The position numbers and the translations under genes were made by a program. From contig NZ_CP036295.1 of NCBI RefSeq assembly GCF_004801255.1, forward strand, positions 991,001 to 1,055,000: 64,000 bases of DNA, in the 5' to 3' direction. Every line of letters begins with the position of its first letter. Position 1 is the stretch's first letter. This DNA is from Desulfovibrio desulfuricans. GTDB taxonomy: Bacteria > Desulfobacterota > Desulfovibrionia > Desulfovibrionales > Desulfovibrionaceae. The notes under the pieces are model-generated. The model was not told the origin of the DNA. It did not search any database and saw only the letters and a list, made by a program, of their open reading frames with translations. Positions 39,447-56,455 of this stretch are shown piece by piece.

Positions 39447-39617
39447 GCGGCCAGCTTAGCGCAAAGCGCCGCGTATGTCAGCGGCAGAGCTGCTGCCCGC
39501 TGCGGTATGCCGCACCGAGCGGACCGCGTGCGCACTCAGATAAACGTGAGCGCTTGACGCCGTGGGGTGCTATCTCTATATTGTGCGCCACGCAAGGGCG
39601 CGTTGCGCCCGCCGTAT

Positions 39618-39694
39618 GCGCCCGTAGCTCAGTTGGATAGAGCAGGAACCTTCTAAGTTCTTGGTCAGGGGTTCGATTCCTCTCGGGCGCGCCA
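39618..39694 (+). tRNA. tRNA-Arg (anticodon TCT)
   Basis: A full cloverleaf can be folded: acceptor GCGCCCG/CGGGCGC, D-arm GCTC...GAGC, anticodon stem GGAAC/GTTCT with loop CTTCTAA giving anticodon TCT, and T-arm with TTCGATT. CCA is encoded. It reads AGA codons. Its 3' half is duplicated at 53462-53506, marking it as an integration target. Confidence 0.95.
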
Positions 39695-39699
39695 ATAAA
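39655..39699 (+). repeat. Left attachment-like repeat (3' half of tRNA-Arg)
   Basis: 45 bases from the anticodon loop through the CCA end and 5 bases beyond recur at 53462-53506 with one mismatch (A39667/T53474). The intact tRNA copy is here. This is the typical attL/attR geometry of tRNA-targeting integrases. Confidence 0.85.
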
Positions 39700-39702
39700 A
39701 TC

Positions 39703-39741
39703 AAGCTCTTATGGATAATAAGCCATAAGAGCTTTTTCTTT
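39703..39741 (+). terminator. Terminator of tRNA-Arg
   Basis: A perfect 12-bp stem (39703-39714 with 39723-39734) with an 8-base loop is followed by TTTCTTTT. It lies 8 bases after the tRNA end. Confidence 0.9.
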
Positions 39742-40144
39742 TGCCCCACACCTGCCCCACGCACTGTATTTTTGCTGAAAAAAAAACAACTCAGCCAATG
39801 TCAGGCAAAAGCCGTTCAAATGGCGTGGCGCAATGCGCGGCGTTTTCGTGGTGGGGTAACCCCGCGCGCAACGCAAGGGCGCAATCGTAGCCGCATAATC
39901 AAAAAAAAGGCCCCAGGGGGCCGTTCAGACAGATGACAAAGCCCGTCCGCGGGTTTTGCGCCGCCATCTTCGGCAGAGCCGCCGGGCGGAAAGGCAGGGC
40001 AATCCGTCGCTGAGGCGCGGCAAAGCACAACCTGCTGCTGATTCCCGGTCGTGTTGACTTTGCCAACACTCTCAACGGCCCCGTAGGCTGTTCTTCTTCT
40101 TCTTCTTCGTCTTTTTCTTCATTCCCCTTTCATTGGCGCATGCG
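39742..40144. other. Gap with LuxR terminator and TTC microsatellite
   Basis: No gene was recognised. On the minus strand GGCCCCCTGGGGCC followed by eight T's (39901-39922) is a good rho-independent terminator for the luxR-type gene. At 40091-40108 there are six TTC units in a row, followed by a T-rich tract. The rest holds no recognisable integrase remnant. Confidence 0.6.
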
Positions 40145-40897
40145 TCAAACGTCAAGCAAACCAAAGGCGATGGCGCGCGCAACCGCATGGCTGCGGGTTG
40201 CGACCTCAAGTTCCCCCATTGCCTTCGCAATATGGTAGTCTACTGTTTTCGTCCCCACCCCAAGCTTCACGGCAATTTCCCTGCTCGACAGCCCCTGTGC
40301 AACCCACAGCAGGCATTCCCGTTCCCGCCCGGTCAGCGTGAGATCGCCAGCGCTGCGCTCCACCCCTTGAAGCTGTATCTGCATTCGGGTGTGTGCATGC
40401 AGCGCGGCAATCTGGGCAACATACCCCCATTCCGCCATGAGATGTTCAAACTCAACGGGCCGCATATCGTTTGACAACGACATGCCCGCAATGGGGTACC
40501 GGCCGGGGGCGCGCAGGGGAATGACAATGCCAACGGACATGCCGCACTCCGCGGCCTCGTTGACGATGCGGCGCTGAACCCGCGTCAGGTGGTGGCCTCG
40601 GTCCGGCCAAAGGGGCAAAGAATCGCGGCCAACCCGCAATGGCGCAAGGCTGCCCATGCAATGCTGCACAACCGGGTCGTTGCGATAATACTGCTCCGTT
40701 TGGTAGCGCTGCTGATAGGCGGCCGGAAAGTTGGACAAGGTTTCGACCTCAACGGCTATGCCGGTGGTTCCGGCATAGCCGTACATCATGAGGTCAAATC
40801 CCAATGATTTCAGAAAAGAGGTGGTCGCGCGCCACGTTTCGTGGACGGATTCGGTAGCGCCAAGGCCCGTGAGAAAATCGTCAAGGCAGCCGTTCAT
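40145..40897 (-). CDS. LuxR-type regulator with autoinducer-binding-like domain
   Basis: The 250-residue product has an N-terminal domain (about 20-165) of the LuxR autoinducer-binding type: YQQRYQTEQYYRNDPVVQHC carries the conserved Asp-Pro pair, and MSVGIVIPLRAPGRYPIAGM fits the later conserved region. Tryptophans that contact acyl-homoserine lactones in TraR/LuxR appear replaced (Tyr, and Arg/Val around 85), so the ligand may differ. Residues 180-245 are a LuxR HTH (LTGRERECLLWVAQGLSSRE, VGTKTVDYHIAKAMGEL). No LuxI-type gene is in the window. It diverges from the first autotransporter and is the only regulator in the island. Confidence 0.88.
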   Translation of the reverse strand: MNGCLDDFLTGLGATESVHETWRATTSFLKSLGFDLMMYGYAGTTGIAVEVETLSNFPAAYQQRYQTEQYYRNDPVVQHCMGSLAPLRVGRDSLPLWPDRGHHLTRVQRRIVNEAAECGMSVGIVIPLRAPGRYPIAGMSLSNDMRPVEFEHLMAEWGYVAQIAALHAHTRMQIQLQGVERSAGDLTLTGRERECLLWVAQGLSSREIAVKLGVGTKTVDYHIAKAMGELEVATRSHAVARAIAFGLLDV

Positions 40898-41080
40898 GGC
40901 GGGGCCTATTTTTTTTGTAGGTGAATAATAAGTAAAACCGGTCTGGTACGCTTGCTGTTTAGTAATTCTACTAGTTGCCCCGCCAGCTGTCTATTTGTAT
41001 TAGCTCTTATAGAACTAGAAAATTGTTTGAGACTCTGAGCTGTTGGCGGATTATTTGAAAGGCGGAACACGCTTGCGGTG
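40898..41080. other. Divergent control region of luxR-type gene and autotransporter 1
   Basis: With the following leader this makes a 345-base AT-rich intergenic region. A small TAGTA-N4-TACTA dyad occurs at 40960-40973. No convincing promoter hexamers could be fixed. It is present once only; autotransporters 2 and 3 have just the leader repeat upstream. Confidence 0.4.
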
Positions 41081-41242
41081 CACACAGCCAGCCTTGAGGT
41101 AATTTTCTGTGTCGAATTTCGGCAAAAATATCGCAGGCAGACGCAATGCGCAGCGTACTGGTGGGGACAGATAGGGCGGTTGCCGCAGCCCCCTTGAAGC
41201 CGCGTGGAAGAATAAAACAGTATAACCGCAAGGACCAGTGCC
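41081..41242 (+). repeat. Leader repeat, copy 1
   Basis: 162 bases immediately before the GTG start recur without length change at 44729-44890 (nearly identical) and 49352-49513 (more diverged in the middle). It ends in GCAAGGACCAGTGCC, which holds the ribosome site AAGGA. Confidence 0.9.
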
Positions 41243-44200
41243 GTGTTTTCATTCCCTCACCTGTGCGGGCGTCGTCGTACGTTTTTTCTCCCGGCGGGGT
41301 TCAACCGCCTGCGCCGTTTTTTGGGCGCTCTCAACATGGTTATTCTGTTCCTGCTGCTGGAACTGGCAGCCGCGCCTTGCGCATTGGCGACCACGTATAA
41401 TGTATCTGGAATCAAGTTCGGCAGCAGCATCAGTGCTGGTGACGAGTGGGTTGTGTCAATCGGCAATACGCTAGAAACCTACGGCGTGGCGAACTCCGGC
41501 ACGCTGGCGAACTCCGGCACGCTGAACAATCATGACTATCTGCCGAACGCAAACGGCGGCACGCTGACGAACTCTGGCACGCTGAACAATTACTTTCGAC
41601 TGGCGAATTCCAGCACGCTGACGAACACCGGCACGCTGAACAACTACAGCTCTCTGGGGAACTCCGGCACGCTGACGAACACCGGCACGTTAACGAACAA
41701 CAGCCAGATGGTGAACGGCGGCATACTGACGAACTCCGGCATACTGACGAACACCGGCACACTGGATAACACCGGCACGCTGAACAATTATAACTATCTG
41801 ACGAACGAAAGCGGCGGCACGCTGACGAACTCCGGCACGCTGAACAATGACTACCGGTTGACGAACTCCGGCACGCTGAACAATCAAAGCAGCGGTAGGC
41901 TGACGAACTCCGGCAGGCTGACGAACTCCGGCAGGCTGACGAACACCGGCACGTTGACGAACACTGACACACTGACGAACGAAAGCGGCGGCACATTGAC
42001 GAACGAAAGCGGCGGCACGCTGACGAACACCGGCACGCTGACGAACAACCTCGGCGGCATGCTGACGAACACCGGCACTCTGAACAATGTCTATTTGTTG
42101 ATAAACACCGGCACGCTGACGAACGAAAGCGGCGGCACGCTGACGAACGAAGACGGTGCCACGCTGACGAACGAAAGCGGCGGCACATTGACGAACGAAA
42201 ACGGTGCCACGCTGACGAATACCGGCACGCTGACGAACAACCGTGGCGGCACGCTGACGAACGAAAGCGGCGGCACGCTGACGAACGAAAGCGGCGGCAC
42301 ATTGACGAACGAAGACGGTGCCACGCTGACGAACTCCGGCACGCTGACGAACAACAGCGGCAGCACGTTGATGAACAACGGCACGCTGACGAACGAAAGC
42401 GGCGGCACGCTGACGAACACCGGTACGCTGATGAACGTCATCACACTGACGAACAACGGCACGTTGACGAACTCCGGCAGGCTGGACAGTTACTACTGGT
42501 TGGCGAACTCCGGCAGGCTGACGAACACCGGCACGTTGAACAACCTCCACAACCTGACGAACTCCGGCAGGCTGACGAACACCGGCACGCTGACGAACTC
42601 CGGCATGCTCACGAACAACAGCAGCGGCACGCTGACGAACACCGGCACGCTGAACAACTACAGCTTTCTGGGGAACACCGGCACGCTGACGAACTCCGGC
42701 ACGCTGAACAATTATAACTATCTGACGAACGAAAGCGGCGGCACGCTGACGAACAACAGTGGCGGCAGGCTGACGAACTCCGACAGGCTGACGAACTCCG
42801 GCACGCTGACGAATGACGACACGCTGACGAACGACGGCACGTTGACAAGCTCCGGCATGCTCACGAACAACAGCGGCGGCACGCTGACGAACACTAACAC
42901 GCTGACAAGCTCCGGCATGCTTACGAACAACAGCGGCGGCACGCTGACGAACGAAAGCGGTGGCACGCTGACGAACTCCGGCACACTAACGAACACCGGC
43001 ACGCTGACGAACTCCGGCACGCTGACAAGCTCCGGCATGCTGACGAACGAAAGCGGCGGCACGCTGACAAACTCCGGCACGCTGACAAGCTCCGGCACGC
43101 TCAACAATTACGGCTCCATCGACAATTCTGGCGGCACGCTGACCGTGGCCAGCGGCGGCGCATACAAGGGCTATTCCGGCTCCAGTTTGCGCAGCGGCAC
43201 GTTCAAGGTGCTTTCCGGTGGATCGCTCGGCATGGCTGTTGGCTCCAGCCTGAACGTGAACAGCCTCTCTTTTTCCTCCGGGGGGGCATACTCCATTCTG
43301 GGTTCAAGAACAGGCACGGTAACGCTGTACGGAGCGGTCAACCTGCTCGACAGTTCGGACACGGCGTACACGGGCACGCTAACCAAGACCAGCAGCGGGT
43401 TTTTATTTTCAACTGTTTTTTCCGCCACGTCCGGGGCCAGTTTTGCCACGCTCACCTATACGGCCAAAAATCTGGGCGAAGTGGTGAGCGGCAACGCCAG
43501 CGCGCTGGACGGCGTGCGCGCAAGCGCCGCGTCTGGCTCATCCGTGGCAAGCTACTTCAACAGGCTGTACACCAGCAACGATTCCAGGCAGGTGCAGAGC
43601 GCCGTGCAGCAAACCGCGGGCGAGGGCGTGGTGAACGGCGGGCGGCTTGTTCTGGCTCAGGCGCAGGCCTTTCACGGGGCCATAGGCCAGCAGCAAAGCA
43701 GCTTTGGCTCCGGGCAGCATTCCCTGGCCCTGGGCGCGGCGCCGGGCTTTTGGTCCACGGCCGGGCAGCAGGGGGGCGACGTGTTTGCAACCATGAGCGG
43801 CGATTCCGGCCTGTTGCAGACCCTGGCGCAAATTGGGGCCATGAACAGCGCAAACCAGGGGCCGCAGCGCTCGGACGCCGTGGAATTTCGTGGGCAGGCG
43901 CACTGGCTGCATCAGGGCGCGCACGACGGCCTGAGCGGCTACGATGCCGAGATGGGCCTGGCGGCGCTGGGCTACGACACGCCGGTTTCCGAAAACGTGC
44001 GTATCGGCTTTGCCGGGGGCTTCAGCGGCGGGCAGTCGCGCGGGGCGGGCGTTACCAGCAACGTAAAGTCGTGGTTTTTTGGCCCTTATTACACCTTGAA
44101 GCTCGGCCAGATCACGCTTGATGGCGATGTGACCTATACCTACAGCCAGGGCAGCATGAACGGCAGTTACAGCTTCCCCGTGGCGGATTCCACCTCCGGC

Positions 44201-44692
44201 AATTTCAACGCCGACACGTTATCCGGCAACCTCAAGGCCTCGCACGCTTTTGAATTCGACGAGGGCGTGCTTCGGCTTATTCCTTCCGTGGGCATCGAGG
44301 CCATGACCACCCGGCGTTATGCCTTTACGGAATCGGGCAGTTTTATCACCCGGCGCTATGCCGCAGCCACCATGAACAGCGTGGGCATTCCCGTGGGCGC
44401 GGCCCTGCAACGGGACTTCGAATTCGGCAAAACCACGGTGACGCCGGAATTTTCGGCGTTCTACGTGCGCAAACTGGCCGACACTGCCCCCACCGCAAGC
44501 GTTACCCTGCTGGACAGCACAACATCTTCCACCACCAAGGGGGCGGACGCCGGGCGCGACCTGCTGCGCGCGGGATTTGGCATCCGTGCTGACCTTGGCG
44601 GCGGCTTTTCAGCCAGCGTCCGCTACACCGGCGAATTCGGCGACCGCTATACCGACAACGGCGCGGAGCTGATGCTCAAGTACGAATTCTAG
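41243..44692 (+). CDS. Giant repeat autotransporter 1
   Basis: The 1149-residue product uses a GTG start with AAGGA 8 bases upstream. An unusually long signal peptide (about 49 residues, Arg-rich n-region, core NMVILFLLLELAAAPCALA) is followed by a passenger of about 550 residues made of near-perfect units such as GTLTNSGTLTN and ESGGTLTN. Then comes a junction (IDNSGGTLTVASGGAY), a linker with SVASYFNRLYTSNDSRQVQS, and a C-terminal type Va autotransporter barrel of about 280 residues ending LMLKYEF. The passenger is predicted to form an Asn/Thr/Gly-rich beta-solenoid on the cell surface. No catalytic motif was seen; adhesin or shielding function is inference. Confidence 0.88.
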   Translation: MFSFPHLCGRRRTFFLPAGFNRLRRFLGALNMVILFLLLELAAAPCALATTYNVSGIKFGSSISAGDEWVVSIGNTLETYGVANSGTLANSGTLNNHDYLPNANGGTLTNSGTLNNYFRLANSSTLTNTGTLNNYSSLGNSGTLTNTGTLTNNSQMVNGGILTNSGILTNTGTLDNTGTLNNYNYLTNESGGTLTNSGTLNNDYRLTNSGTLNNQSSGRLTNSGRLTNSGRLTNTGTLTNTDTLTNESGGTLTNESGGTLTNTGTLTNNLGGMLTNTGTLNNVYLLINTGTLTNESGGTLTNEDGATLTNESGGTLTNENGATLTNTGTLTNNRGGTLTNESGGTLTNESGGTLTNEDGATLTNSGTLTNNSGSTLMNNGTLTNESGGTLTNTGTLMNVITLTNNGTLTNSGRLDSYYWLANSGRLTNTGTLNNLHNLTNSGRLTNTGTLTNSGMLTNNSSGTLTNTGTLNNYSFLGNTGTLTNSGTLNNYNYLTNESGGTLTNNSGGRLTNSDRLTNSGTLTNDDTLTNDGTLTSSGMLTNNSGGTLTNTNTLTSSGMLTNNSGGTLTNESGGTLTNSGTLTNTGTLTNSGTLTSSGMLTNESGGTLTNSGTLTSSGTLNNYGSIDNSGGTLTVASGGAYKGYSGSSLRSGTFKVLSGGSLGMAVGSSLNVNSLSFSSGGAYSILGSRTGTVTLYGAVNLLDSSDTAYTGTLTKTSSGFLFSTVFSATSGASFATLTYTAKNLGEVVSGNASALDGVRASAASGSSVASYFNRLYTSNDSRQVQSAVQQTAGEGVVNGGRLVLAQAQAFHGAIGQQQSSFGSGQHSLALGAAPGFWSTAGQQGGDVFATMSGDSGLLQTLAQIGAMNSANQGPQRSDAVEFRGQAHWLHQGAHDGLSGYDAEMGLAALGYDTPVSENVRIGFAGGFSGGQSRGAGVTSNVKSWFFGPYYTLKLGQITLDGDVTYTYSQGSMNGSYSFPVADSTSGNFNADTLSGNLKASHAFEFDEGVLRLIPSVGIEAMTTRRYAFTESGSFITRRYAAATMNSVGIPVGAALQRDFEFGKTTVTPEFSAFYVRKLADTAPTASVTLLDSTTSSTTKGADAGRDLLRAGFGIRADLGGGFSASVRYTGEFGDRYTDNGAELMLKYEF
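41490..43102 (+). repeat. Passenger minisatellite of autotransporter 1
   Basis: Tandem units of 18 bases (typically ACGCTGACGAACTCCGGC) and 24 bases (ACGCTGACGAACGAAAGC plus GGCGGC) alternate irregularly, always in frame. Interruptions of 18-30 bases carry Tyr/Leu-rich segments such as NNYNYLTNE. The high identity at DNA level suggests recent expansion. Confidence 0.9.
43103..44692 (+). repeat. Conserved 1.59-kb 3' module, copy 1
   Basis: This stretch, from the passenger junction through the barrel stop codon, recurs without net length change at 47726-49315 and 51572-53161. Differences are scattered single bases. It encodes 529 constant residues. Confidence 0.9.
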
Positions 44693-44728
44693 GGGGCGGT
44701 GCGATGCATTTGAAAAAAAGAATTCTCT

Positions 44729-44890
44729 CACACAGCCAGCCTTGAGGTAATTTTCTGTGTCGAATTTCGGCAAAAATATCGCAGGCAGACGCAATGCGCA
44801 GCGTACTGGCGGGGACAGATAGGGCAGTTGCCGCAGCCCCCTTGAAGCCGCGTGGAAGAATAAAACAGTATAACCGCAAGGACCAGTGCC
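44729..44890 (+). repeat. Leader repeat, copy 2
   Basis: Second copy of the 162-base pre-GTG leader, nearly identical to copy 1. With the 36-base tail of gene 1 it makes up the whole 198-base spacer between autotransporters 1 and 2; no terminator or separate promoter is evident. Confidence 0.9.
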
Positions 44891-47800
44891 GTGTTTTCAT
44901 TCCCACACCTGTGCGGGCGTCGCCGTACGTTTTTTCTCCCGGCGGGGTTCAACCGCCTGCGCCGTTTTTTGGGCGTTCTCAACATGGTGATTCTGTCCCT
45001 CATACTGGAACTGGCAGCCGCGCCTTGCGCATTGGCGACCACGTATAATGTATCTGGAACCAAATACGGCAGCATAAGTGCCGGTGACGAGTGGGTTGTG
45101 TCAATCGGTAATACGCTAGAAACCTACGGTGTACAGATCAATGGCACGCTGGCGAACTCCGGCACGATGAACAACTCCTTCAACTTGGAAAACCGCGGCA
45201 CGCTGACGAACAACAGCGGCGGCACGCTGAACAATAACTTTATAATGTCGAGTTTCGGCACGCTGACAAACTCCGGCACGTTAACGAACAACCTCAGTCT
45301 GGGGAACTCCGGCACGCTGACGAACACCGGCACGTTAACGAACAGCTGCAGGATGTGGAATGGCGGCACGCTGACGAACACCGGCATACTGACGAACTCC
45401 GACACGCTGACGAACGCTGGCACGTTGGATAATTACTCCTTGTTGACGAACACCGGCACGCTGAACAATGAAAGCGGCGGCACGCTGACGAACACCGGCA
45501 TACTGACGAACTCCGGCAGGCTGGCGAACTCCGGCACGCTGACGAACACCAACATGCTGACGAACGAAAGTCGCGGCACATTGACGAACGAAAACGGTGC
45601 CACGCTGACGAACACCGGCACGCTGAACAATCAAAGCGGCGGCACGCTGACGAACAACAGCGGCGGCACGCTGAACAATGCCCGTTTGTTGATAAACAGC
45701 GGCACGCTGACGAACAACAGCGGCGGCACGCTGAACAATCAAAGCGGCGGCACGCTGACGAACGAAAGCAGCGGCACGCTGACGAACAGCGGCACGCTGA
45801 ACAATGAAAGCGGCGGCACGCTGGCGAACACCAGCGGCGGCACGCTGACGAACTCCGGCACGCTGACGAACTCCGGCACGCTGACGAACGAAAGACGCAC
45901 GCTGACGAACTCCGGCACGCTGACAAACAAAAGCGGTGGCACGCTGACGAACGACAACTGCGGCACGCTGACGAACTCCGGCACGCTGACGAACGAAAGC
46001 GGCGGCACGCTGACGAACAGAGACAGCGGCACGCTGACGAACGAAAGCAGCGGCACGCTGACGAACTCCGGCACGCTGGACAGTAACTACATGTTTTTGA
46101 ACTACCAAGGCGGCACGCTGACGAACACCAGCGGCGGCACGCTGAACGCCCACCACATAATGGTGAACAGGGGCACGCTGACGAACGATAACGGCGCCAC
46201 GCTGAACATCAGCGGCGGCGGCTTGTACTCCTCCGGCACGCTGACGAACTCCGGCACGCTGGCGAACTCCGGCGGGCTGATAAACAGCGGCACGCTGAAC
46301 AATCAAAGCAGCGGTAGGCTGACGAGCACTGACACGCTGACGAACGAAAGCGGCGGCATATTGACGAACGCAAACGGTGCCACGCTGAAGAATACCGGCA
46401 CGCTGACGAACGAAAGCGGCGGCATACTGACGAACTCCGGCACGCTGAACAATGCCTATTTGTTGATAAACACCGGCACGCTGACGAACGAAAGCGGCGG
46501 CACGCTGACGAACGAAAGCGGCGGCACGCTGACGAACAACAGCGGCGGCACGCTGAACAATTACTACTATCTGTGGAACTACGGTGGGCTGACGAACGAA
46601 AGCGGCGGCACGCTGACGAACAATAGCAACGGCGTACTGTCAAACTCCGGCAGGCTATCAAACTTAGGCAGGCTGACGAACTCCGGCATACTGAACAATT
46701 ACGACTCACTGGCGAACTACGGCACGCTGACGAACACCGGTACGCTGACGAACAACAGCGGCGGCACGCTGACGAACGGAAACGGCGGCACGCTGTACAA
46801 TTACTACTCGTTGACGAACACCGGCACGCTGACGAACGCCGGCACGCTGACGAACGAAAACGGCAGCATATTGACGAACGGAAACGGCGGCACGCTGTAC
46901 AATTACTACTCGTTGACGAACTCCGGCACGCTGACGAACACCGGCACGCTGACGAACGAAAACGGCAGCATATTGACGAACGGAAACGGCGGCACGCTGA
47001 ACAATGACTATTTGTTGATAAACACCGGCGCGCTGACGAACGAAAACGGCGGCGCACTGACGAACTCCGGCGGCGGCACGCTGACGAACAACAGCGGCGG
47101 CACGCTGACAAACTCCGGCACACTGACGAACACCGGCACGCTGACGAACAACAGCGGCGGCACGCTGGCGAACTACATAACCGGTACGCTGACGAACACT
47201 GGCACGCTGAACAATTACAACGCACTGGATAACACCGGCACACTGGATAACACCGGCACGCTGGCGAACAACAACGGCGGCACACTGGATAACACCGGCA
47301 CGCTGAATAACACCGGCAGGCTGACGAACAACAGCGGTGCCATGCTGACAAACGAGAGCTCCGGCACGCTGACGAACTCCTGTACGCTGACGAACTACGC
47401 CGATCTGGAGAGCTACGGCGTGTTAACGAACAACAGCGGCGGCACGCTGTCAAACACCGGCACGCTGACAAGCTCCGGCACGCTCACGAACAACAGCGGC
47501 GGCACGCTGTCAAACACCGGCACGCTGACAAGCTCCGGCACGCTCACGAACAACAGCGGCGGCACGCTGTCAAACACCGGCACGCTGACAAGCTCCGGCA
47601 TGCTTACGAACAACAGCGGCGGCACGCTGTCAAACTCCGGCACGTTGACAAGCTCCGGCATGCTCACGAACAACAGCGGCGGCACGCTGTCAAACTCCGG
47701 CACGCTGACAAGTTCCGGCATGCTGAACAATTACGGCTCCATCGACAATTCTGGCGGCACGCTGACCGTGGCCAGCGGCGGCGCATACAAGGGCTATTCC

Positions 47801-49315
47801 GGCTCCAGTTTACGCAGCGGCACGTTCAAGGTTCTCTCTGGCGGGTCGCTCGGCATGGCTGTTGGCTCCAGCCTGAACGTGAACAGCCTCTATTTTTCCT
47901 CCGGGGGCACATACTCCATTCTGGGTTCAAGAACAGGCACGGTAACGCTGTACGGAGCGGTCAACCTGCTCAACAGTTCGGACACGGCGTACACGGGCAC
48001 GCTGAACAAGACCAGCAACGGGCTTTTATCCTCCACTGTTTTTTCCGCCACGTCCGGGGCTAGTTTTGCCACGCTCACCTATACGGCCAAAGATCTGGGT
48101 AACGTGGTGAGCGGCAACGCCAGCGCGCTGGACGGCGTGCGCGCAAGCGCCGCGTCTGGCTCATCCGTGGCAAGCTACTTCAACAGGCTGTACACCAGCA
48201 ACGATTCCAGGCAGGTGCAGAGCGCCGTGCAGCAAACCGCGGGCGAGGGCGTGGTGAACGGCGGGCGGCTTGTTCTGGCTCAGGCGCAGGCCTTTCACGG
48301 GGCCATAGGCCAGCAGCAAAGCAGCTTTGGCTCCGGGCAGCATTCCCTGGCCCTGGGCGCGGCGCCGGGCTTTTGGTCCACGGCCGGGCAGCAGGGGGGC
48401 GACGTGTTTGCAACCATGAGCGGCGATTCCGGCCTGTTGCAGACCCTGGCGCAAATTGGGGCCATGAACAGCGCAAACCAGGGGCCGCAGCGCTCGGACG
48501 CCGTGGAATTTCGTGGGCAGGCGCACTGGCTGCATCAGGGCGCGCACGACGGCCTGAGCGGTTACGATGCCGAAATGGGCCTGGCGGCGCTGGGCTACGA
48601 CACGCCGGTTTCCGAAAACGTGCGCATCGGTTTTGCCGGGGGCTTCAGCGGCGGGCAGTCGCGCGGGGCGGGCGTTACCAGCAACGTAAAGTCCTGGTTT
48701 TTTGGCCCTTATTACACCTTGAAGCTCGGCCAGATCACGCTTGATGGCGATGTGACCTATACCTACAGCCAGGGCAGCATGAACGGCAGTTACAGCTTCC
48801 CCGTGGCGGATTCCACCTCCGGCAATTTCAACGCCGACACGTTATCCGGCAACCTAAAGGCCTCGCACGCTTTTGAATTCGACGAGGGCGTGCTTCGGCT
48901 TATTCCTTCCGTGGGCATCGAGGCCATGACCACCCGGCGTTATGCCTTTACGGAATCGGGCAGTTTTATCACCCGGCGCTATGCCGCAGCCACCATGAAC
49001 AGCGTGGGCATTCCCGTGGGCGCGGCCCTGCAACGGGACTTTGAAATCGGCAAAACCACGGTGACGCCGGAATTTTCGGCGTTCTACGTGCGCAAACTGG
49101 CCGACACTGCCCCCACCGCAAGCGTTACCCTGCTGGACAGCACAACATCTTCCACCACCAAGGGGGCGGACGCCGGGCGCGACCTGCTGCGCGTTGGCTT
49201 TGGCATTCGCGCTGACCTTGGCGGCGGCCTTTCGGCCAGCGCCCGCTACACCGGCGAATTCGGCGACCGCTACACCGACAACGGCGCGGAGCTGATGCTC
49301 AAGTACGAGTTCTAG
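44891..49315 (+). CDS. Giant repeat autotransporter 2
   Basis: The 1474-residue product is the longest of the three, with the same GTG start, long signal peptide and C-terminal 529-residue module as copy 1 (barrel ending LMLKYEF). The difference is the passenger, about 870 residues. It contains the same GTLTN units in a new order, plus internal duplications: a 102-base repeat (46777-46878 and 46879-46980) and a 60-base array near the end. A surface role is inferred from the type Va barrel; the passenger has no recognisable enzymatic or cysteine-based motif. Confidence 0.88.
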   Translation: MFSFPHLCGRRRTFFLPAGFNRLRRFLGVLNMVILSLILELAAAPCALATTYNVSGTKYGSISAGDEWVVSIGNTLETYGVQINGTLANSGTMNNSFNLENRGTLTNNSGGTLNNNFIMSSFGTLTNSGTLTNNLSLGNSGTLTNTGTLTNSCRMWNGGTLTNTGILTNSDTLTNAGTLDNYSLLTNTGTLNNESGGTLTNTGILTNSGRLANSGTLTNTNMLTNESRGTLTNENGATLTNTGTLNNQSGGTLTNNSGGTLNNARLLINSGTLTNNSGGTLNNQSGGTLTNESSGTLTNSGTLNNESGGTLANTSGGTLTNSGTLTNSGTLTNERRTLTNSGTLTNKSGGTLTNDNCGTLTNSGTLTNESGGTLTNRDSGTLTNESSGTLTNSGTLDSNYMFLNYQGGTLTNTSGGTLNAHHIMVNRGTLTNDNGATLNISGGGLYSSGTLTNSGTLANSGGLINSGTLNNQSSGRLTSTDTLTNESGGILTNANGATLKNTGTLTNESGGILTNSGTLNNAYLLINTGTLTNESGGTLTNESGGTLTNNSGGTLNNYYYLWNYGGLTNESGGTLTNNSNGVLSNSGRLSNLGRLTNSGILNNYDSLANYGTLTNTGTLTNNSGGTLTNGNGGTLYNYYSLTNTGTLTNAGTLTNENGSILTNGNGGTLYNYYSLTNSGTLTNTGTLTNENGSILTNGNGGTLNNDYLLINTGALTNENGGALTNSGGGTLTNNSGGTLTNSGTLTNTGTLTNNSGGTLANYITGTLTNTGTLNNYNALDNTGTLDNTGTLANNNGGTLDNTGTLNNTGRLTNNSGAMLTNESSGTLTNSCTLTNYADLESYGVLTNNSGGTLSNTGTLTSSGTLTNNSGGTLSNTGTLTSSGTLTNNSGGTLSNTGTLTSSGMLTNNSGGTLSNSGTLTSSGMLTNNSGGTLSNSGTLTSSGMLNNYGSIDNSGGTLTVASGGAYKGYSGSSLRSGTFKVLSGGSLGMAVGSSLNVNSLYFSSGGTYSILGSRTGTVTLYGAVNLLNSSDTAYTGTLNKTSNGLLSSTVFSATSGASFATLTYTAKDLGNVVSGNASALDGVRASAASGSSVASYFNRLYTSNDSRQVQSAVQQTAGEGVVNGGRLVLAQAQAFHGAIGQQQSSFGSGQHSLALGAAPGFWSTAGQQGGDVFATMSGDSGLLQTLAQIGAMNSANQGPQRSDAVEFRGQAHWLHQGAHDGLSGYDAEMGLAALGYDTPVSENVRIGFAGGFSGGQSRGAGVTSNVKSWFFGPYYTLKLGQITLDGDVTYTYSQGSMNGSYSFPVADSTSGNFNADTLSGNLKASHAFEFDEGVLRLIPSVGIEAMTTRRYAFTESGSFITRRYAAATMNSVGIPVGAALQRDFEIGKTTVTPEFSAFYVRKLADTAPTASVTLLDSTTSSTTKGADAGRDLLRVGFGIRADLGGGLSASARYTGEFGDRYTDNGAELMLKYEF
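45130..47725 (+). repeat. Passenger minisatellite of autotransporter 2
   Basis: About 2.6 kb of in-frame 18- and 24-base units as in copy 1. Longer-period repeats have arisen on top: the unit starting AACGGAAACGGCGGCACGCT at 46777 recurs 102 bases later almost unchanged. Confidence 0.9.
47429..47728 (+). repeat. Exact-period 60-base tandem array
   Basis: Five consecutive 60-base units, beginning with ACGAACAACAGCGGCGGCAC, encode LTNNSGGTLSNTGTLTSSGT-like 20-residue repeats. Units differ by only one to three bases, mostly changing Thr/Ser or CTC/CTT. This is the youngest-looking expansion in the locus. Confidence 0.92.
47726..49315 (+). repeat. Conserved 1.59-kb 3' module, copy 2
   Basis: Aligned to copy 1 with a constant offset of 4623 bases and no net indel. 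Nearly all changes are silent or conservative, for example FEFGK to FEIGK. Confidence 0.9.
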
Positions 49316-49351
49316 GGGGCGGTGCGATGCATTTGAAAAAAAGAATTCTCT

Positions 49352-49513
49352 CACACAGCCAGCCTTGGGGTAATTTTCTGTATCTGGTTGCGACAAAAAT
49401 ATCACAGGCTAACACAATGCGCAGCGCACTGGCGGGGGCTGGCTGGGCTTCACCAGCCAGCCCTTTGGAGCCGCGTGGAAGAATAAAACAGTATAACCGC
49501 AAGGACCAGTGCC
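49352..49513 (+). repeat. Leader repeat, copy 3 (diverged)
   Basis: Same 162-base length as copies 1 and 2, but the middle differs. Here a perfect hairpin GGGCTGGCTGG...CCAGCCAGCCC (about 49437-49464) replaces the weaker pairing of the others. The terminal ribosome-site segment is unchanged. Confidence 0.85.
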
Positions 49514-52500
49514 GTGTTTTCATTCCCTCGTCTGTGCGGGTGTTGCCGTAAGCTTTTCCCCTTTGCAGGATCCAACCGCCTGCGCCGTTTTCTGGGCGTT
49601 CTCAACATGATTATTCTGTTCCTGCTGCTGGAACTGGCAGCCGCGCCTTGCGCATTGGCAACAACGTACAATGTGTCTGGAACCAAGTCCGGCAGCATCA
49701 GTGCCGGTGACGAGTGGGTTGTGTCAAGCGGCAATACGCTAGTAACCGATACCGTGCAGATCAACGGCGGGCTGACGAACTCCGGCACGGTGAACAACAA
49801 ATGGTTGAAGAACTTCGGCAAGCTGACGAACTCCGGCATACTGACGAACAACGTCGACGGCACGCTGACGAACGAAAGCGGCGGCAGACTGACAAACGAA
49901 AGCGGCGGCACACTGACGAACTCCGGCACGCTGAACAACAATTACTACTTGAAAAACGAAGGTACGCTGACGAACACCGGCACGCTGAACAGTTACTTCT
50001 CCTTGGAAAACGAAGGTACGCTGGCGAACACCGGCACGCTGAACAACAACAACGAGTTGAGGACCTTCGGCAATCTGATGAACTCCGGCATACTGACGAA
50101 CAACGTCGGCGGCGAGTTGAAGAACGAAAACGGCGGCACGCTGACGAACTCCGGCACGCTGACGAACTCCGGCTTTATGCAGAACTACTCCGGCACGCTG
50201 ACGAACTCCGGCACCTTGACGAACAAAGGCGATATGGGGAACAACAGCGGCGGTACACTGACGAACTCCGGTACGCTGACGAACTCCGGTACGCTGACGA
50301 ACTCCGGCACGCTGATGAACTCCGGTACGCTGACAAACTCCGGCACGCTGATGAACTACTTCGGCACGCTGACGAACACCGGCAGGCTGACAAACTCTGG
50401 TACGCTGATAAACGTAAGCGGTGCCATGCTGAACAACAACTACTACTTGGAGAACACCGGCACGCTGACGAACGACGGCACGCTGACGAACTACGACACT
50501 TTGACGAACAACAGCGGCGGTACACTGACGAACTCCGGCACGTTGAACAACTACAGCTCCCTGGGAAACACCGGCACGCTGACGAACTCCGGCACGTTGA
50601 ACAACTACAGCTCCCTGGGAAACACCGGCACGCTGACGAACTCCGGCATGCTGAACAACAACTACTACTTGGGGAACACCGGCACGCTGACGAACTCTGG
50701 CACGTTAACGAACAGCAGCGGCAGTACGCTGACGAACGAAAACGGCGGTACATTGACGAACTCCGGCACGGTGCTGAACAACAGCGGTTGCTGGCTGACG
50801 AACTCCGGCACGCTGCTGAACAACAGCGGTGGCTTGTTGACGAACTACGGCACGCTGACGAACACCGGCACGCTGAACAACTACGGCTACTTGGCAAACG
50901 TCGGCACGCTGACGAACACCGGCACGCTGAACAACTACGGCTACTTGGCAAACGTCGGCACGCTGACGAACTCCGGCACGCTGAACAACAACTTCTACTT
51001 GGGAAACGAAGGTACGCTGACGAACACCGGCACTCTGAACAATTACTCTGGGTTGGTGAACGAAGGTACGCTGACGAACATCGGTACGCTGAACAACAAC
51101 CGCGAGTTGGGGAACGTCGGCACGCTGACGAACAAAGGCACGCTGAACAACAACAATTATTTGGAGATCACTGGCACGCTGACGAACACCGGCAGTCTGC
51201 TGAACAACAGCGGCGGCACGCTGGCGAACTACGCCGGTGGCACGCTGGCGAACTACGGCACACTGACGAACTCCGGTACGCTGACGAACTACAGCGGCGG
51301 TGTTCTGACGAACATAGGCACGCTGACGAACACCGGCACGCTGACGAACGAGATCGGCGGCACGCTGACGAACACCGGCAGTCTGCTGAACAACCGCGGC
51401 AGTACTCTGTTGATCTACGCCGGTGCCACGCTGACGAACTCCGGCACACTAACGAACTCCGGCACGCTGACGAACAACAGTGGTGGTGTTTTGACGAACA
51501 TCGGCACGCTGACGAACAACAGCGGCGGCACGCTGTCAAACACCGGCACGCTGACAAGTTCCGGCATGCTGAACAATTCCGGCTCCATCGACAATTCTGG
51601 CGGCACATTGACCGTGGCAAGCGGCGGCGCATACAAGGGCTATTCCGGCTCCAGTTTACGCAGCGGCACGTTCAAGGTGCTTTCCGGCGGATCGCTCGGC
51701 ATGGGCGTGGGCTCCAGCCTGAACGTGAACAGCCTCTATCTTTCATCTGGGGGTACCTACGCCGGTATGGGGTCAAAATCGGGCACGGTAACGCTGTACG
51801 GAGCGGTCAACCTGCTCGACAGTTCGGACACGGCGTTCACGGGCACGCTGAACAAGACCAGCAACGGGCTTTTATCCTCCACTGTTTTTTCCGCCACGTC
51901 CGGGGCCAGTTTTGCCACGCTCACCTATACGGCCAAAAATCTGGGCGAAGTGGTGAGCGGCAACGCCAGCGCGCTGGACGGCGTGCGCGCAAGCGCCGCG
52001 TCTGGCTCATCCGTGGCAAGCTACTTCAACAGGCTGTACACCAGCAACGATTCCAGGCAGGTGCAGAGCGCCGTGCAGCAAACCGCGGGCGAGGGCGTGG
52101 TGAACGGCGGGCGGCTTGTTCTGGCTCAGGCGCAGGCCTTTCACGGGGCCATAGGCCAGCAGCAAAGCAGCTTTGGCTCCGGGCAGCATTCCCTGGCCCT
52201 GGGCGCGGCGCCGGGCTTCTGGTCCACGGCCGGGCAGCAGGGGGGAGATATGTTTGCAACCGTAAGCGGTGATTCCGGCTTCTTTCAGACGTTGGCGCAA
52301 ATTGCGGCCATGAACAGCCCAAATCAGGGCCCACAGCGCTCAAGCGCCGTGGAATTTCGTGGGCAGGCCCACTGGCTGCACCAGGGCGCGCACGACGGCC
52401 TGAGCGGCTACGATGCCGAGATGGGCCTGGCGGCGCTGGGCTACGACACGCCGGTTTCCGAAAACGTGCGCATCGGTTTTGCCGGGGGCTTCAGCGGCGG

Positions 52501-53161
52501 GCAGTCGCGCGGGGCGGGCGTTACCAGCAACGTAAAGTCGTGGTTTTTTGGCCCTTATTACACCTTGAAGCTCGGCCAGATCACGCTTGATGGCGATGTG
52601 ACCTATACCTACAGCCAGGGCAGCATGAACGGCAGCTACAGCTTCCCCGTGGCGGATTCCACCTCTGGCGACTTCAACGCCGACACGTTATCCGGCAACC
52701 TCAAGGCTTCGCACGCCTTCGAATTCGACGAAGGCGTTCTTCGGCTTATTCCTTCCGTGGGCATCGAGGCCATGACCACCCGGCGTTATGCCTTTACGGA
52801 ATCGGGCAGTTTTATCACCCGGCGCTATGCAGCAGCCATCATGAACAGCGTGGGCATTCCCGTGGGCGCGGCCCTGCAACGGGACTTTGAAATCGGCAAA
52901 ACCACGGTGACGCCGGAATTTTCGGCGTTCTACGTGCGCAAACTGGCCGACACTGCCCCCACCGCAAGCGTTACCCTGCTGGACAGCACAACATCTTCCA
53001 CCACCAAGGGGGCGGACGCCGGGCGCGACCTGCTGCGCGCGGGATTTGGCATTCGTGCTGACCTTGGCGGCGGCCTTTCGGCCAGCGCCCGCTACACCGG
53101 CGAATTCGGCGGCCGCTACACCGACAACGGCGCGGAGCTGATGCTCAAGTACGAGTTCTAG
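49514..53161 (+). CDS. Giant repeat autotransporter 3
   Basis: The 1215-residue product has the same GTG start and layout. The signal region is slightly changed (KLFPFAGSNRLRRFLG in place of TFFLPAGFNRLRRFLG). Its passenger (about 610 residues) uses the GTLTN unit with different spacer words (NNNYYLKNEGTL, NNYGYLANVGTL, NNYSSLGNTGTL). The C-terminal barrel is again nearly identical, but a short stretch around 52240-52345 is more diverged (SGDSGFFQTLAQIAAMNSPN). It is the last gene of the tandem set. Confidence 0.88.
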   Translation: MFSFPRLCGCCRKLFPFAGSNRLRRFLGVLNMIILFLLLELAAAPCALATTYNVSGTKSGSISAGDEWVVSSGNTLVTDTVQINGGLTNSGTVNNKWLKNFGKLTNSGILTNNVDGTLTNESGGRLTNESGGTLTNSGTLNNNYYLKNEGTLTNTGTLNSYFSLENEGTLANTGTLNNNNELRTFGNLMNSGILTNNVGGELKNENGGTLTNSGTLTNSGFMQNYSGTLTNSGTLTNKGDMGNNSGGTLTNSGTLTNSGTLTNSGTLMNSGTLTNSGTLMNYFGTLTNTGRLTNSGTLINVSGAMLNNNYYLENTGTLTNDGTLTNYDTLTNNSGGTLTNSGTLNNYSSLGNTGTLTNSGTLNNYSSLGNTGTLTNSGMLNNNYYLGNTGTLTNSGTLTNSSGSTLTNENGGTLTNSGTVLNNSGCWLTNSGTLLNNSGGLLTNYGTLTNTGTLNNYGYLANVGTLTNTGTLNNYGYLANVGTLTNSGTLNNNFYLGNEGTLTNTGTLNNYSGLVNEGTLTNIGTLNNNRELGNVGTLTNKGTLNNNNYLEITGTLTNTGSLLNNSGGTLANYAGGTLANYGTLTNSGTLTNYSGGVLTNIGTLTNTGTLTNEIGGTLTNTGSLLNNRGSTLLIYAGATLTNSGTLTNSGTLTNNSGGVLTNIGTLTNNSGGTLSNTGTLTSSGMLNNSGSIDNSGGTLTVASGGAYKGYSGSSLRSGTFKVLSGGSLGMGVGSSLNVNSLYLSSGGTYAGMGSKSGTVTLYGAVNLLDSSDTAFTGTLNKTSNGLLSSTVFSATSGASFATLTYTAKNLGEVVSGNASALDGVRASAASGSSVASYFNRLYTSNDSRQVQSAVQQTAGEGVVNGGRLVLAQAQAFHGAIGQQQSSFGSGQHSLALGAAPGFWSTAGQQGGDMFATVSGDSGFFQTLAQIAAMNSPNQGPQRSSAVEFRGQAHWLHQGAHDGLSGYDAEMGLAALGYDTPVSENVRIGFAGGFSGGQSRGAGVTSNVKSWFFGPYYTLKLGQITLDGDVTYTYSQGSMNGSYSFPVADSTSGDFNADTLSGNLKASHAFEFDEGVLRLIPSVGIEAMTTRRYAFTESGSFITRRYAAAIMNSVGIPVGAALQRDFEIGKTTVTPEFSAFYVRKLADTAPTASVTLLDSTTSSTTKGADAGRDLLRAGFGIRADLGGGLSASARYTGEFGGRYTDNGAELMLKYEF
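49770..51571 (+). repeat. Passenger minisatellite of autotransporter 3
   Basis: About 1.8 kb of in-frame units. Two 54-base words are each perfectly doubled: one near 50539-50646 (NNYSSLGNTGTLTNSGTL) and one near 50853-50960 (NNYGYLANVGTLTNTGTL), further signs of slippage or unequal crossing-over. Confidence 0.9.
51572..53161 (+). repeat. Conserved 1.59-kb 3' module, copy 3
   Basis: Aligned to copy 2 with a constant offset of 3846 bases and no net indel. A patch at about 52240-52345 carries clustered differences, while both flanks are almost identical, suggesting past gene conversion with a diverged tract retained. Confidence 0.88.
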
Positions 53162-53461: not shown

Positions 53462-53506
53462 AAGTTCTTGGTCTGGGGTTCGATTCCTCTCGGGCGCGCC
53501 AATAAA
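53462..53506 (+). repeat. Right attachment-like repeat (tRNA-Arg 3' fragment)
   Basis: This is a 45-base copy of 39655-39699 with one mismatch, covering the anticodon-stem 3' strand, T-arm, acceptor 3' strand and CCA. The 5' half of a tRNA is missing upstream, so it is not a functional tRNA gene. It marks the right end of the putative island. Confidence 0.85.
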
Positions 53507-54433: not shown

Positions 54434-56455
54434 GTGCCAATGAGTGCAAAAAATAAAATTCTCCTGAGCGTATTTGCCTTTTTTACGCTTGTGATCGTCG
54501 CCATCACCTACAGCTCATACCGAAGCTTTTGCGCCTCGTCGTACGATTCGGAGATGGAGCAGATGGACATCATGTCGCAGGCTGTGGGCAAGGCTGTATC
54601 GGAAAAAATGGACGTCTATTTCAATCAGCTGGAGCTCACCTCGCGCATGCTCACCAACCCTGTGGGCGTTGGGCCGGACGACCTCTATGAGTACAAGCGC
54701 AACCTGCTGAAACAGCTGCTCAAGCAGACTGGCCTTGTGGAGGCGTACTACGCTTTTGATTCGGGCGAGACGCACAACGATAAGGGCATGATACCGAATT
54801 TTAATGCAAAAACACTTAACCGCGAGTGGTTTACCCGCATGTTTGGCGGCGAAAAGCGCGTTGTCACCACGCCGTATACCTCCTCCATCGGCGCAACGGT
54901 TATGGCCGTGGGCGTTCCCCTGTTTGACGACAGCAAGGTTGCCGGTACGCTGTGCATAAATCTCGGGCTCACGGATATTACTAATTTTACCAATCATGTA
55001 CTTGAATTTGATAATATTTTTCTGACGCGGGCCGACGGGTACATCATGGCCAACCGCGACGACAAGCGCATCGGCAAAAGCCTGTGGGAGGCTATACCGG
55101 ATCTGAAAAAATACAGCGGCCAGCAGCAGAACGGGCGCATCCAGTTTACGCACGGCGGCAAGGCTTACGAGGGCAGCCTGTATGTTATCTCGGGGCTTGG
55201 CTGGAAGGTGTGGACCTACAAGCCGCTGGAGGAAATTCAGCTCGACTCGACGGCAAATTTGCGCGCCAGTTCCATAACCGCTGTTGTCGCGCTGGTTTTA
55301 TCCGCGCTTATGGTGCATTTTTTGATTTCGGTGCTGATTTTCAAGCCTCTGGGCCGTGGAGTGGTATTTGCCACTGCGGTGGCGGGGGGCAACCTGGATG
55401 AAACCCTGGATATCCGCAGCCGGGACGAGGTTGGCGTGCTGGCTGATGCCCTGCGCCATATGGTGGCGCGTCTCAAGGAAATGCTGCGCACGACTGAAGA
55501 AAAGGAACGTCATGCGCTGGCCGAAGCCGAGCGCGCGCGAACCGCTGTTGCCGAGGCGGACGAAGCCCGCAAGGAGGCCGAGCTCGCCACTCAGCGTGGT
55601 ATCTTGCAGGCCGCCAGCCAGATTGAGGGCGTTGTGGTGCGCATCGCATCCAGTACCGAAGAGCTGGCGACGCAGTCAGAGCAGATTGCCCATGCGGCAG
55701 ACATCCAGCGCCAGCGCATGACCGATACGTCTGCGGGCATGGAGCAGATGTCCGCCTCCATCGTTGAGGTGGCGCGCAATTCCGGGCAGGCGGCCTCCAA
55801 TGCCGTCAAAACGCAGCAGGAGGCAGGCCAGGGGGTTAGCCTGGTCCGGCAGGTGGTGGCCTCTGTCAACCAGGTGCACGAGCAGACTCAGGCCATGAAG
55901 ACCGACCTCACCGCTCTGGGCAAGCAGGCCGACAGCATCGGCGCGATCATGGATGTCATCAACGATATAGCCGATCAGACCAACCTGCTGGCGCTCAACG
56001 CCGCCATCGAAGCCGCCCGCGCCGGCGAGGCCGGGCGCGGTTTTGCCGTTGTGGCCGACGAGGTGCGCAAGCTGGCCGAAAAGACCATCGGCGCCACCAA
56101 GGAGGTGGGCGCTACCATCACTGGCATGCAGATGGCCGCCAGACAGAGCATTACCTCCATGGATCGGGCCAGCTCGGTTGTGGAAGAAACCACCACACTT
56201 TCACACAAATCGGGCGCTGTGCTCGACGCCATCTTGTGCCTTGCCAAGGAAAACGCCGAACAGGCGCAGTCCATAGCCACAGCGGCGGAAGAGCAGTCGT
56301 CCGCGTCTGAAGAAATCAGTCGCAGCCTGGACGAAGTGGCGCGTCTGACCAGCGACACCACGCGCGGACAGGCCGAATCGGCTGCGGCCATTCAGCAGCT
56401 GGCCGAGATGTCGGGCGATTTGCGCAACGTTGTGGAAAACTTGAAAAGATCCTAG
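54434..56455 (+). CDS. Methyl-accepting chemotaxis protein with periplasmic Cache-type sensor
   Basis: The 673-residue product starts at a GTG (54434) with AAGGAG 5 bases upstream; an ATG lies two codons later. TM1 is at about 9-28. A large periplasmic region of about 245 residues is of the dCache type ([40 protein letters not shown]). TM2 is at about 278-303, then HAMP, then a long cytoplasmic coiled coil. The hairpin tip [20 protein letters not shown] (about 515) binds CheA/CheW. It is followed by a terminator and is probably monocistronic. The ligand cannot be deduced. Confidence 0.93.

Follow-up and report, generated by a model that had tools for sequence, protein, structure and literature searches.

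The closest described counterparts of the locus reported here are autotransporters that occur in several copies or whose passenger varies. The self-associating adhesins antigen 43 (Ag43) and TibA are classical (type Va) autotransporters, and copies of the Ag43 gene, agn43, are scattered in the genome. Up to five agn43 copies per genome, with variation through domain shuffling, have been described (PMC10058404). In Helicobacter mustelae, the passenger of Hsr is reported to vary at one 15-kb locus by cassette recombination into one expressed gene (PMC2846917). The Vomp family of Bartonella quintana is described as consisting of tandem genes for trimeric autotransporters, with gene loss reported in isolates (PMC10936683), and Bartonella autotransporter clusters, such as those in the islands of B. 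grahamii, are described as growing or shrinking within genomic islands as members are duplicated in tandem or deleted (PMC2697382). Here we describe three tandem autotransporter genes of Desulfovibrio desulfuricans (assembly GCF_004801255.1) that lie in a 64,000-bp stretch of contig NZ_CP036295.1 (forward-strand positions 991,001 to 1,055,000; hereafter the window, whose numbering is used throughout). This locus is probably a tRNA-Arg island that carries a LuxR-type regulator and three tandem beta-helix autotransporters of the Ag43 kind, in which the secretion module has been partly homogenised and the passengers have been lengthened.

The likeness to Ag43 and TibA is that of an autotransporter with a predicted beta-helix passenger; the array described here differs from them in its near-regular units of 6 and 8 residues, its tandem copies and its LuxR neighbour, and its protein B has no sequence match in the PDB. 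With Hsr the locus shares an autotransporter passenger region subject to diversification at a single locus, but three whole genes are present here and no cassettes were found in the same genome. It resembles the Vomp locus as a tandem surface-adhesin family with a conserved 5' region, whereas its genes carry a PF03797 barrel and the Vomps are trimeric. The clusters of B. grahamii likewise place autotransporters within a genomic island; they belong to another lineage, and the available excerpt of that report names neither a divergent LuxR gene nor a tRNA-Arg island for Bartonella. The layout therefore has known precedents and its combination is new: a preliminary description of this DNA was aware of no named system with such a layout, a view that Hsr, Vomp and the agn43 paralogues, as far as the excerpts of those reports go, do not sustain. 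No published description of the locus itself was found among the titles and abstract openings listed from the open-licence literature. The tRNA island, the LuxR regulator and the likeness to self-associating autotransporters go beyond the preliminary description.

The array consists of three intact open reading frames (ORFs) on the plus strand between 41243 and 53161, all in one orientation and all GTG-started: gene A (41243-44692, 1149 aa), gene B (44891-49315, 1474 aa) and gene C (49514-53161, 1215 aa), as given by the ORF list and Pfam. A 162-bp leader lies ahead of each gene (A, 41081-41242; B, 44729-44890; C, 49352-49513), and each ends in a 1590-bp (530-codon) 3' module (A, 43100-44689; B, 47723-49312; C, 51569-53158) that comprises the end of the repeat region, a linker and the barrel. 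Both leaders and modules aligned without gaps. Module identity was 97.4% for A/B, 95.2% for A/C and 95.4% for B/C, and the leaders differed at 2 (A/B), 29 (A/C) and 28 (B/C) of 162 sites, so that gene C is, in these alignments, the outlier in both. The preliminary description of a constant leader and barrel therefore holds for their length, but near-identity of the leader is confined to A and B. The two spacers (A-B, 44693-44728; B-C, 49316-49351) are identical over their 36 bp, giving an intergenic distance of 198 bp in both cases (36 bp plus leader). Because the 36-bp spacers and the leaders repeat, duplication of a leader-plus-gene unit is supported, and the array would have arisen by two tandem duplications of that unit. 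A search of the same genome (3,251,440 bp, one contig; the one genome of the species analysed) placed 3/3 barrel matches and 17/17 passenger matches inside genes A to C, which excludes a chance origin of the array. The rest of that genome yielded no passenger-like sequence; there is therefore no sign of silent cassettes, and a silent passenger store outside the array was rejected.

The beta-domain PF03797 was found in all three modules when these were searched alone (E values of 7.1e-38, 5.4e-38 and 4.4e-37 for A, B and C); in the whole-protein scan Pfam missed the barrel of B, which was matched in the B module alone. By this C-terminal domain the predicted products of A, B and C are type Va (classical) autotransporters; the preliminary description had called them autotransporters. 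The YadA-type family was absent from their Pfam matches, PF03797 being present instead, which sets them apart from trimeric autotransporters. Parts of A and B, but not C, matched Fil_haemagg (PF05594) at the threshold applied, and an NCBIfam scan assigned no family to the three proteins. Read by eye, gene A would encode a signal peptide at about residues 1-49, the hydrophobic stretch of which ends in ALA, and the proteins end in F. Between the N-terminus and the module lie the passenger repeat regions, which differ in size as previously noted: 1659 bp in A (41456-43114, 553 aa), 2637 bp in B (45101-47737, 879 aa) and 1860 bp in C (49724-51583, 620 aa), all divisible by three. Long open frames overlap the passengers (49714-52272 on the plus strand; 41430-42302 and 46209-47471 on the minus strand), the sense-strand one reaching up to 852 aa; these are probably no genes but a by-product of the stop-free repeat unit.

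The three modules differ at 95 sites, where C is the odd copy at 54, A at 22 and B at 18, and all three differ at 1. With the three-way site excluded, the site patterns fell into 29 runs against 55.4 expected, and 0 of 10000 permutations gave a count as low. The clustering persisted when the test was confined to codons with two synonymous forms (51 codons; 21 runs, 32.1 expected; P = 0.00025), and the longest-run test gave P values of 0.0002 for A/B, 0.0124 for A/C and 0.001 for B/C. Identical module stretches of 458, 338 and 269 bp were present, and the synonymous divergence (dS) of the module ranged from 0.00 to 0.39 per 159-bp window. Conversion tracts are favoured as the source of this mosaic because rate differences between sites would not order the module patterns in such a way. 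The proposal of the preliminary description that long flanks allow recombination between the genes is thus matched by a recombination signature in these flanks.

The passengers present a different picture. Their dS was 0.24 for A/B, 0.33 for A/C and 0.38 for B/C, near the module maximum of each pair, and their ratio of nonsynonymous to synonymous divergence (dN/dS) was about 0.75, 0.81 and 0.69, compared with about 0.17, 0.21 and 0.18 in the module; passenger dN was 0.18-0.27. These values are most simply explained by old duplications and a partial homogenisation of the modules but not of the passengers. Two considerations count against this reading: with three sequences tested, part of the module mosaic could also come from a burst of change in one region of a single copy, and the passenger dS values are rough, each coming from one alignment per pair in repetitive sequence. 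Passenger alignments scored 5.9 to 7.8 standard deviations above 100 unit-shuffled versions per pair. Since they exceed these controls, the order of units appears to be largely inherited, the passengers being collinear homologues with many insertions and not reshuffled cassettes, and this does not bear out the earlier impression that unit order differs among the copies. The longest exact stretch common to two passengers is 61 bp, and therefore no recent passenger exchange is visible.

Repeats within the passengers point to the way in which they changed length. All 184 of the 184 exact matches of at least 30 bp within and between passengers were in frame. Passenger B contains five 60-bp (20-aa) units (47426-47725, plus strand), in which 115 exact bases recur at a 60-bp step, and also 102-bp in-frame units; in passenger C, two places (50525/50579 and 50848/50902) show 70 exact bases repeated after 54 bp (18 aa). 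As a historical signature, these exact duplications support lengthening of the passengers by in-frame duplication of coil-length DNA, in agreement with the preliminary statement that short in-frame repeats allow expansion. Likewise as history, the comparison of module and passenger supports conserved secretion while the passengers diversified.

A locus of this build might also be one of active surface variation, as the preliminary description proposed; crossing-over and repeat slippage would then alter the passengers in real time and yield antigenic or phage-receptor variants, as with Hsr or Vomp. The identical module stretches (458 bp at most) and the exact coil duplications speak for it, and the excerpts of the Hsr and Vomp reports offer precedents (PMC2846917, PMC10936683); however, we consider such active variation unlikely, as no silent cassettes were found in the same genome, the longest exact block common to two passengers is 61 bp, the passengers are collinear above the unit-shuffled controls, a passenger dS of 0.24-0.38 speaks of old rather than recent divergence, and the view is that of one genome of the species. 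A lower probability still attaches to the idea that the three copies persist because of the differing reach of their fibres (about 550, 620 and 880 repeat residues) and not for any change over time. The three intact genes, the module dN/dS of about 0.2 and the strong differences in passenger repeat length would suit such a ladder of lengths, and repeat-length variation of surface proteins has been reviewed (PMC9704523, in the part available), but the passengers differ in their residues too (dN 0.18-0.27).

The fold of the passenger was predicted from its repeats and from structure models. The units are of 6 residues (LTNSGT type) and 8 residues (LTNESGGT type), and self-matching was elevated at 6, 8, 12, 14, 18 and 20 residues, unevenly across passengers A, B and C. 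An AlphaFold2 model of residues 300-720 of A (421 residues) was a regular beta-solenoid with a mean predicted local distance difference test score (pLDDT) of 86 and a predicted TM-score (pTM) of 0.82. All eight Foldseek matches of this model at E<=0.001 were Ag43 (seven chains) or TibA (one), the best at 3.7e-07. The full-length model of A (mean pLDDT 51) gave seven Foldseek matches at E<=0.001, again to Ag43 and TibA; because it did not resolve the barrel and the N-terminus, the statements on fold refer to the 421-residue piece. In VIA-align, Ag43b reached a Z of 21.2 (root-mean-square deviation, rmsd, 4.4 over 288 residues) and TibA a Z of 20.5 (rmsd 3.0 over 250).

A closer kinship with Ag43 is opposed by several of the results. 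The Foldseek superpositions on Ag43 and TibA were poor (TM-scores of 0.18-0.37, rmsd 12-16.5), and in VIA-align both Vag8 (Z 24.1; rmsd 3.0 over 325 residues) and pertactin (Z 23.1; rmsd 3.7 over 359) scored above Ag43 and TibA. Protein B, the only one of the three queried, had 0 matches among PDB chains at E<=0.01 by phmmer, and both structure models were built from single sequences. Further beta-helices, tailspikes and polygalacturonases among many, were also listed by VIA-align, so that Z alone does not single out Ag43. Given the poor superpositions, the lack of a PDB sequence match for B and the higher Z of pertactin and Vag8, the likeness to Ag43 is limited to fold class and ranking. Most probably the modelled passenger forms a beta-helix of the classical autotransporter type, with self-associating adhesins as its nearest neighbours in the Foldseek ranking. 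It may be right-handed, a handedness taken from structural matches whose TM-scores are low. In the model the repeat units form single strands of one solenoid and not separate domains, which distinguishes them from Periscope Proteins, described as tandem repeats that fold as separate domains (PMC9704523).

Divergent from the array, on the minus strand, lies a gene for a LuxR-type regulator (40145-40897) with the domains Autoind_bind (3.9e-25) and GerE (5.4e-14) in Pfam. Its product aligns with the PDB relatives RhlR, QscR and LasR from residue ~22-28 to residue 248 of 250. At six positions that we take to be those of the ligand pocket, five seem to be kept relative to RhlR; the first Trp is replaced by Tyr, as it is in the relatives from two other genomes (G154 and G159). 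The intergenic region between regulator and array (40898-41080) has a GC content of 43% and contains a sigma-70-like site at 41027-41054. This consensus match is the nearest plus-strand site and lies just upstream of, and outside, the duplicated unit, and no sigma-70-like promoter was listed within the shared leader. Because the nearest site precedes the duplicated unit, expression of B and C may rely on transcripts that read through from A. At the settings applied, no inverted repeats resembling a lux box were found in the divergent region. The luxI family (PF00765) had no match in the genome, but the control was positive in 0 of 14 genomes, which leaves a 'solo' regulator unproven and counts against reading it as such. 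A review of sulphate-reducer biofilms and quorum sensing refers to LuxR homologues in Desulfovibrio, and the words 'adhesin' and 'solo' do not occur in its available text (PMC8586430).

Close relatives of this regulator are few. In the genus, 13 of 79 genomes including its own gave a match, and 11 of the 12 others spanned residues 169 onward only. In the family, some match was found in 135 of 288 genomes, among which only G154 (69% identity) and G159 (66%) were close; the next full-length match, in G115, was 32% identical. Relatives on plasmids (504 records) were all below 60% identity and mostly from Rhizobium and Bradyrhizobium. In G154 the regulator is divergent from a two-partner secretion (TPS) pair, made up of a ShlB/POTRA_2 protein and a frame of 2387 aa that carries a TPS domain (L176, 3026-13372), and in G159 from three collar-domain frames, after which comes an autotransporter that has Ig-like and cadherin-like domains (L175, 9988-16788). 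Type V secretion genes thus adjoin the regulator in 3/3 of the genomes that hold it at >60% identity among the 288 searched, which is too few for a claim that the pairing exceeds the genome background. Control of the adjoining type V genes by the regulator would fit this arrangement. A bolder reading, which we hold only tentatively, is that this LuxR subfamily of the Desulfovibrionaceae is a dedicated switch that travels with type V adhesins. Here, from a tRNA island, it would drive a tandem array in which gene conversion keeps the secretion module functional and duplication of single coils creates fibres of new length, so that a sulphate reducer would generate variants for self-recognition or of its surface in response to a signal.

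The regulator and the array occupy an island of 13.8 kb that extends from a tRNA-Arg gene to a 45-bp copy of the tRNA 3' end. The tRNA-Arg (TCT), the integration site (39618-39694, plus strand), was identified by ARAGORN and Rfam, and across the region Rfam recognised the tRNA alone. The left attachment repeat (39655-39699, plus strand) comprises the last 40 bases of the tRNA and the next 5, and the right repeat (53462-53506, plus strand; 45 bp) differs from the left one at 1 position. The left end of the island (39700-39773) holds a hairpin at 39703-39734 and lies within a match to a relative, G001, to the left island end of which 39548-39773, tRNA included, is 85% identical. Ten corresponding stretches of relatives were compared, four of which were counted. 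In two close relatives, G022 and G042, the site is empty, with folC, tRNA-Arg and yqaA side by side, and the sequence to the right of our right repeat matches the junction that follows the tRNA in G042. The distance between folC and yqaA is 15.5 kb in G001 and 42 kb in G004, and in both the tRNA end occurs a second time ahead of yqaA. The others were left out: G023, in which folC and yqaA are on separate contigs; G003, whose stretch reaches a contig end; and G006, G014, G015 and G018, which have a single tRNA-Arg end but no yqaA beside folC. By the duplicated tRNA 3' end and the empty site in relatives, the locus is classed as a tRNA-associated genomic island. As a separate observation, the tRNA-Arg (TCT) site between folC and yqaA takes differing inserts, of ~15 kb in G001 (L079, 1014-16103) and of 42 kb in G004 (L107-L109).

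The island genes recognised are only the LuxR gene and the array; its other ORFs are short or overlap the array. A tyrosine integrase lies beside the far repeat of the G001 insert, and the 42-kb insert of G004 matched neither that integrase nor the LuxR protein nor the barrel. Two findings speak against a mobile, foreign element. No integrase was recognised among the island ORFs, and the mobility of the island is for this reason not demonstrable; with the G001 integrase as query, no match below an E value of 2.3 was obtained in the window, and no integrase remnant was recognised in the island. Moreover, the GC content of the island (0.593) equals that of the rest of the window (0.596), so that a foreign origin is unsupported by composition. 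Elsewhere in the genome there were seven weak tyrosine-recombinase matches, the best at 37% over 150 residues.

Relatives of the barrel are sparse. Within the genus, 13 of 79 genomes including its own matched the module, the best of the others at 31% identity, and no close relative was found in the other 78. These congeneric matches (L004-L016) showed no LTN unit in the longest frame per locus, a weak negative because several of the frames were not the autotransporter and one was partly masked. The passenger end plus module of B matched in 25 of 288 family genomes and a five-row profile in 20 of 395 phylum genomes, its own included in both counts. The family search scored three and the phylum search four first-look candidates per genome, so that further copies could be missed; among the candidates scored, no other tandem array of this family was seen. 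Barrel relatives were absent from plasmids, IMG/VR and a first GTDB scan, a second GTDB scan giving two loci, and passenger relatives were absent from plasmids and phages. The strong relatives were G159, a Desulfocurvus metagenome-assembled genome (MAG), and G164, a Humidesulfovibrio MAG, both Desulfovibrionaceae. The G159 autotransporter (L131/L136) has a module 60% identical to ours (alignment A2), the same N-cap and a similar N-G-T-rich passenger; it differs in that its passenger is shorter, the regulator (66%) is on another contig and no second copy lies in the surrounding 20 kb. In G164 the module is 47% identical (alignment A2) and the passenger is of another kind, and in G268 and G085 passengers of a similar NSGT type are joined to other barrels. 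The pairing of barrel and passenger types thus varies between species (G164, L132 8705-11530; G268, L133 4109-8317; G085, L134 4997-8614).

The least probable explanation is that the genes are neutral cargo of the island: duplicates that are redundant and under no selection for a role, their modules being alike as a by-product of recombination. The lack of close relatives of the barrel in the 78 other genomes of the genus searched, the lack of an integrase in the island and a passenger dN/dS of about 0.7-0.8 would suit it, but three frames intact over 3.4-4.4 kb, a module dN/dS of about 0.2 and exact repeat matches that are in frame in 184/184 cases argue against it.

In the explanation that we prefer, an island with a regulator and three duplicated autotransporter genes, gene conversion is the most likely cause of a later, partial homogenisation of the secretion module between copies, and each passenger, with repeat periods of 18 and 20 residues, would have diverged and changed length through in-frame duplication of coil-length DNA. 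Crossing-over in the module could still add or remove whole genes. The regulator may control the array in response to a ligand, acyl-homoserine-lactone-like or other, and the passengers may serve as surface fibres of different length for self-association or attachment. The most likely role would be in aggregation or biofilm formation, with LuxR governing how cells attach to one another or to surfaces, and density- or ligand-dependent aggregation is predicted. Sulphate-reducer biofilms matter for corrosion, and the locus suggests that in these bacteria type V adhesins are paired with a regulator of the quorum-sensing type. It also offers a compact natural experiment on autotransporter diversification, with the module homogenised and the passenger free at one tandem locus.

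To the right of the island edge, 54434-56455 and 57040-58779 encode proteins recognised by eye as methyl-accepting-chemotaxis-like. G001 encodes a counterpart of the 54434-56455 product at the corresponding position (L079, 17241-19262), so this protein seemingly belongs to the backbone.

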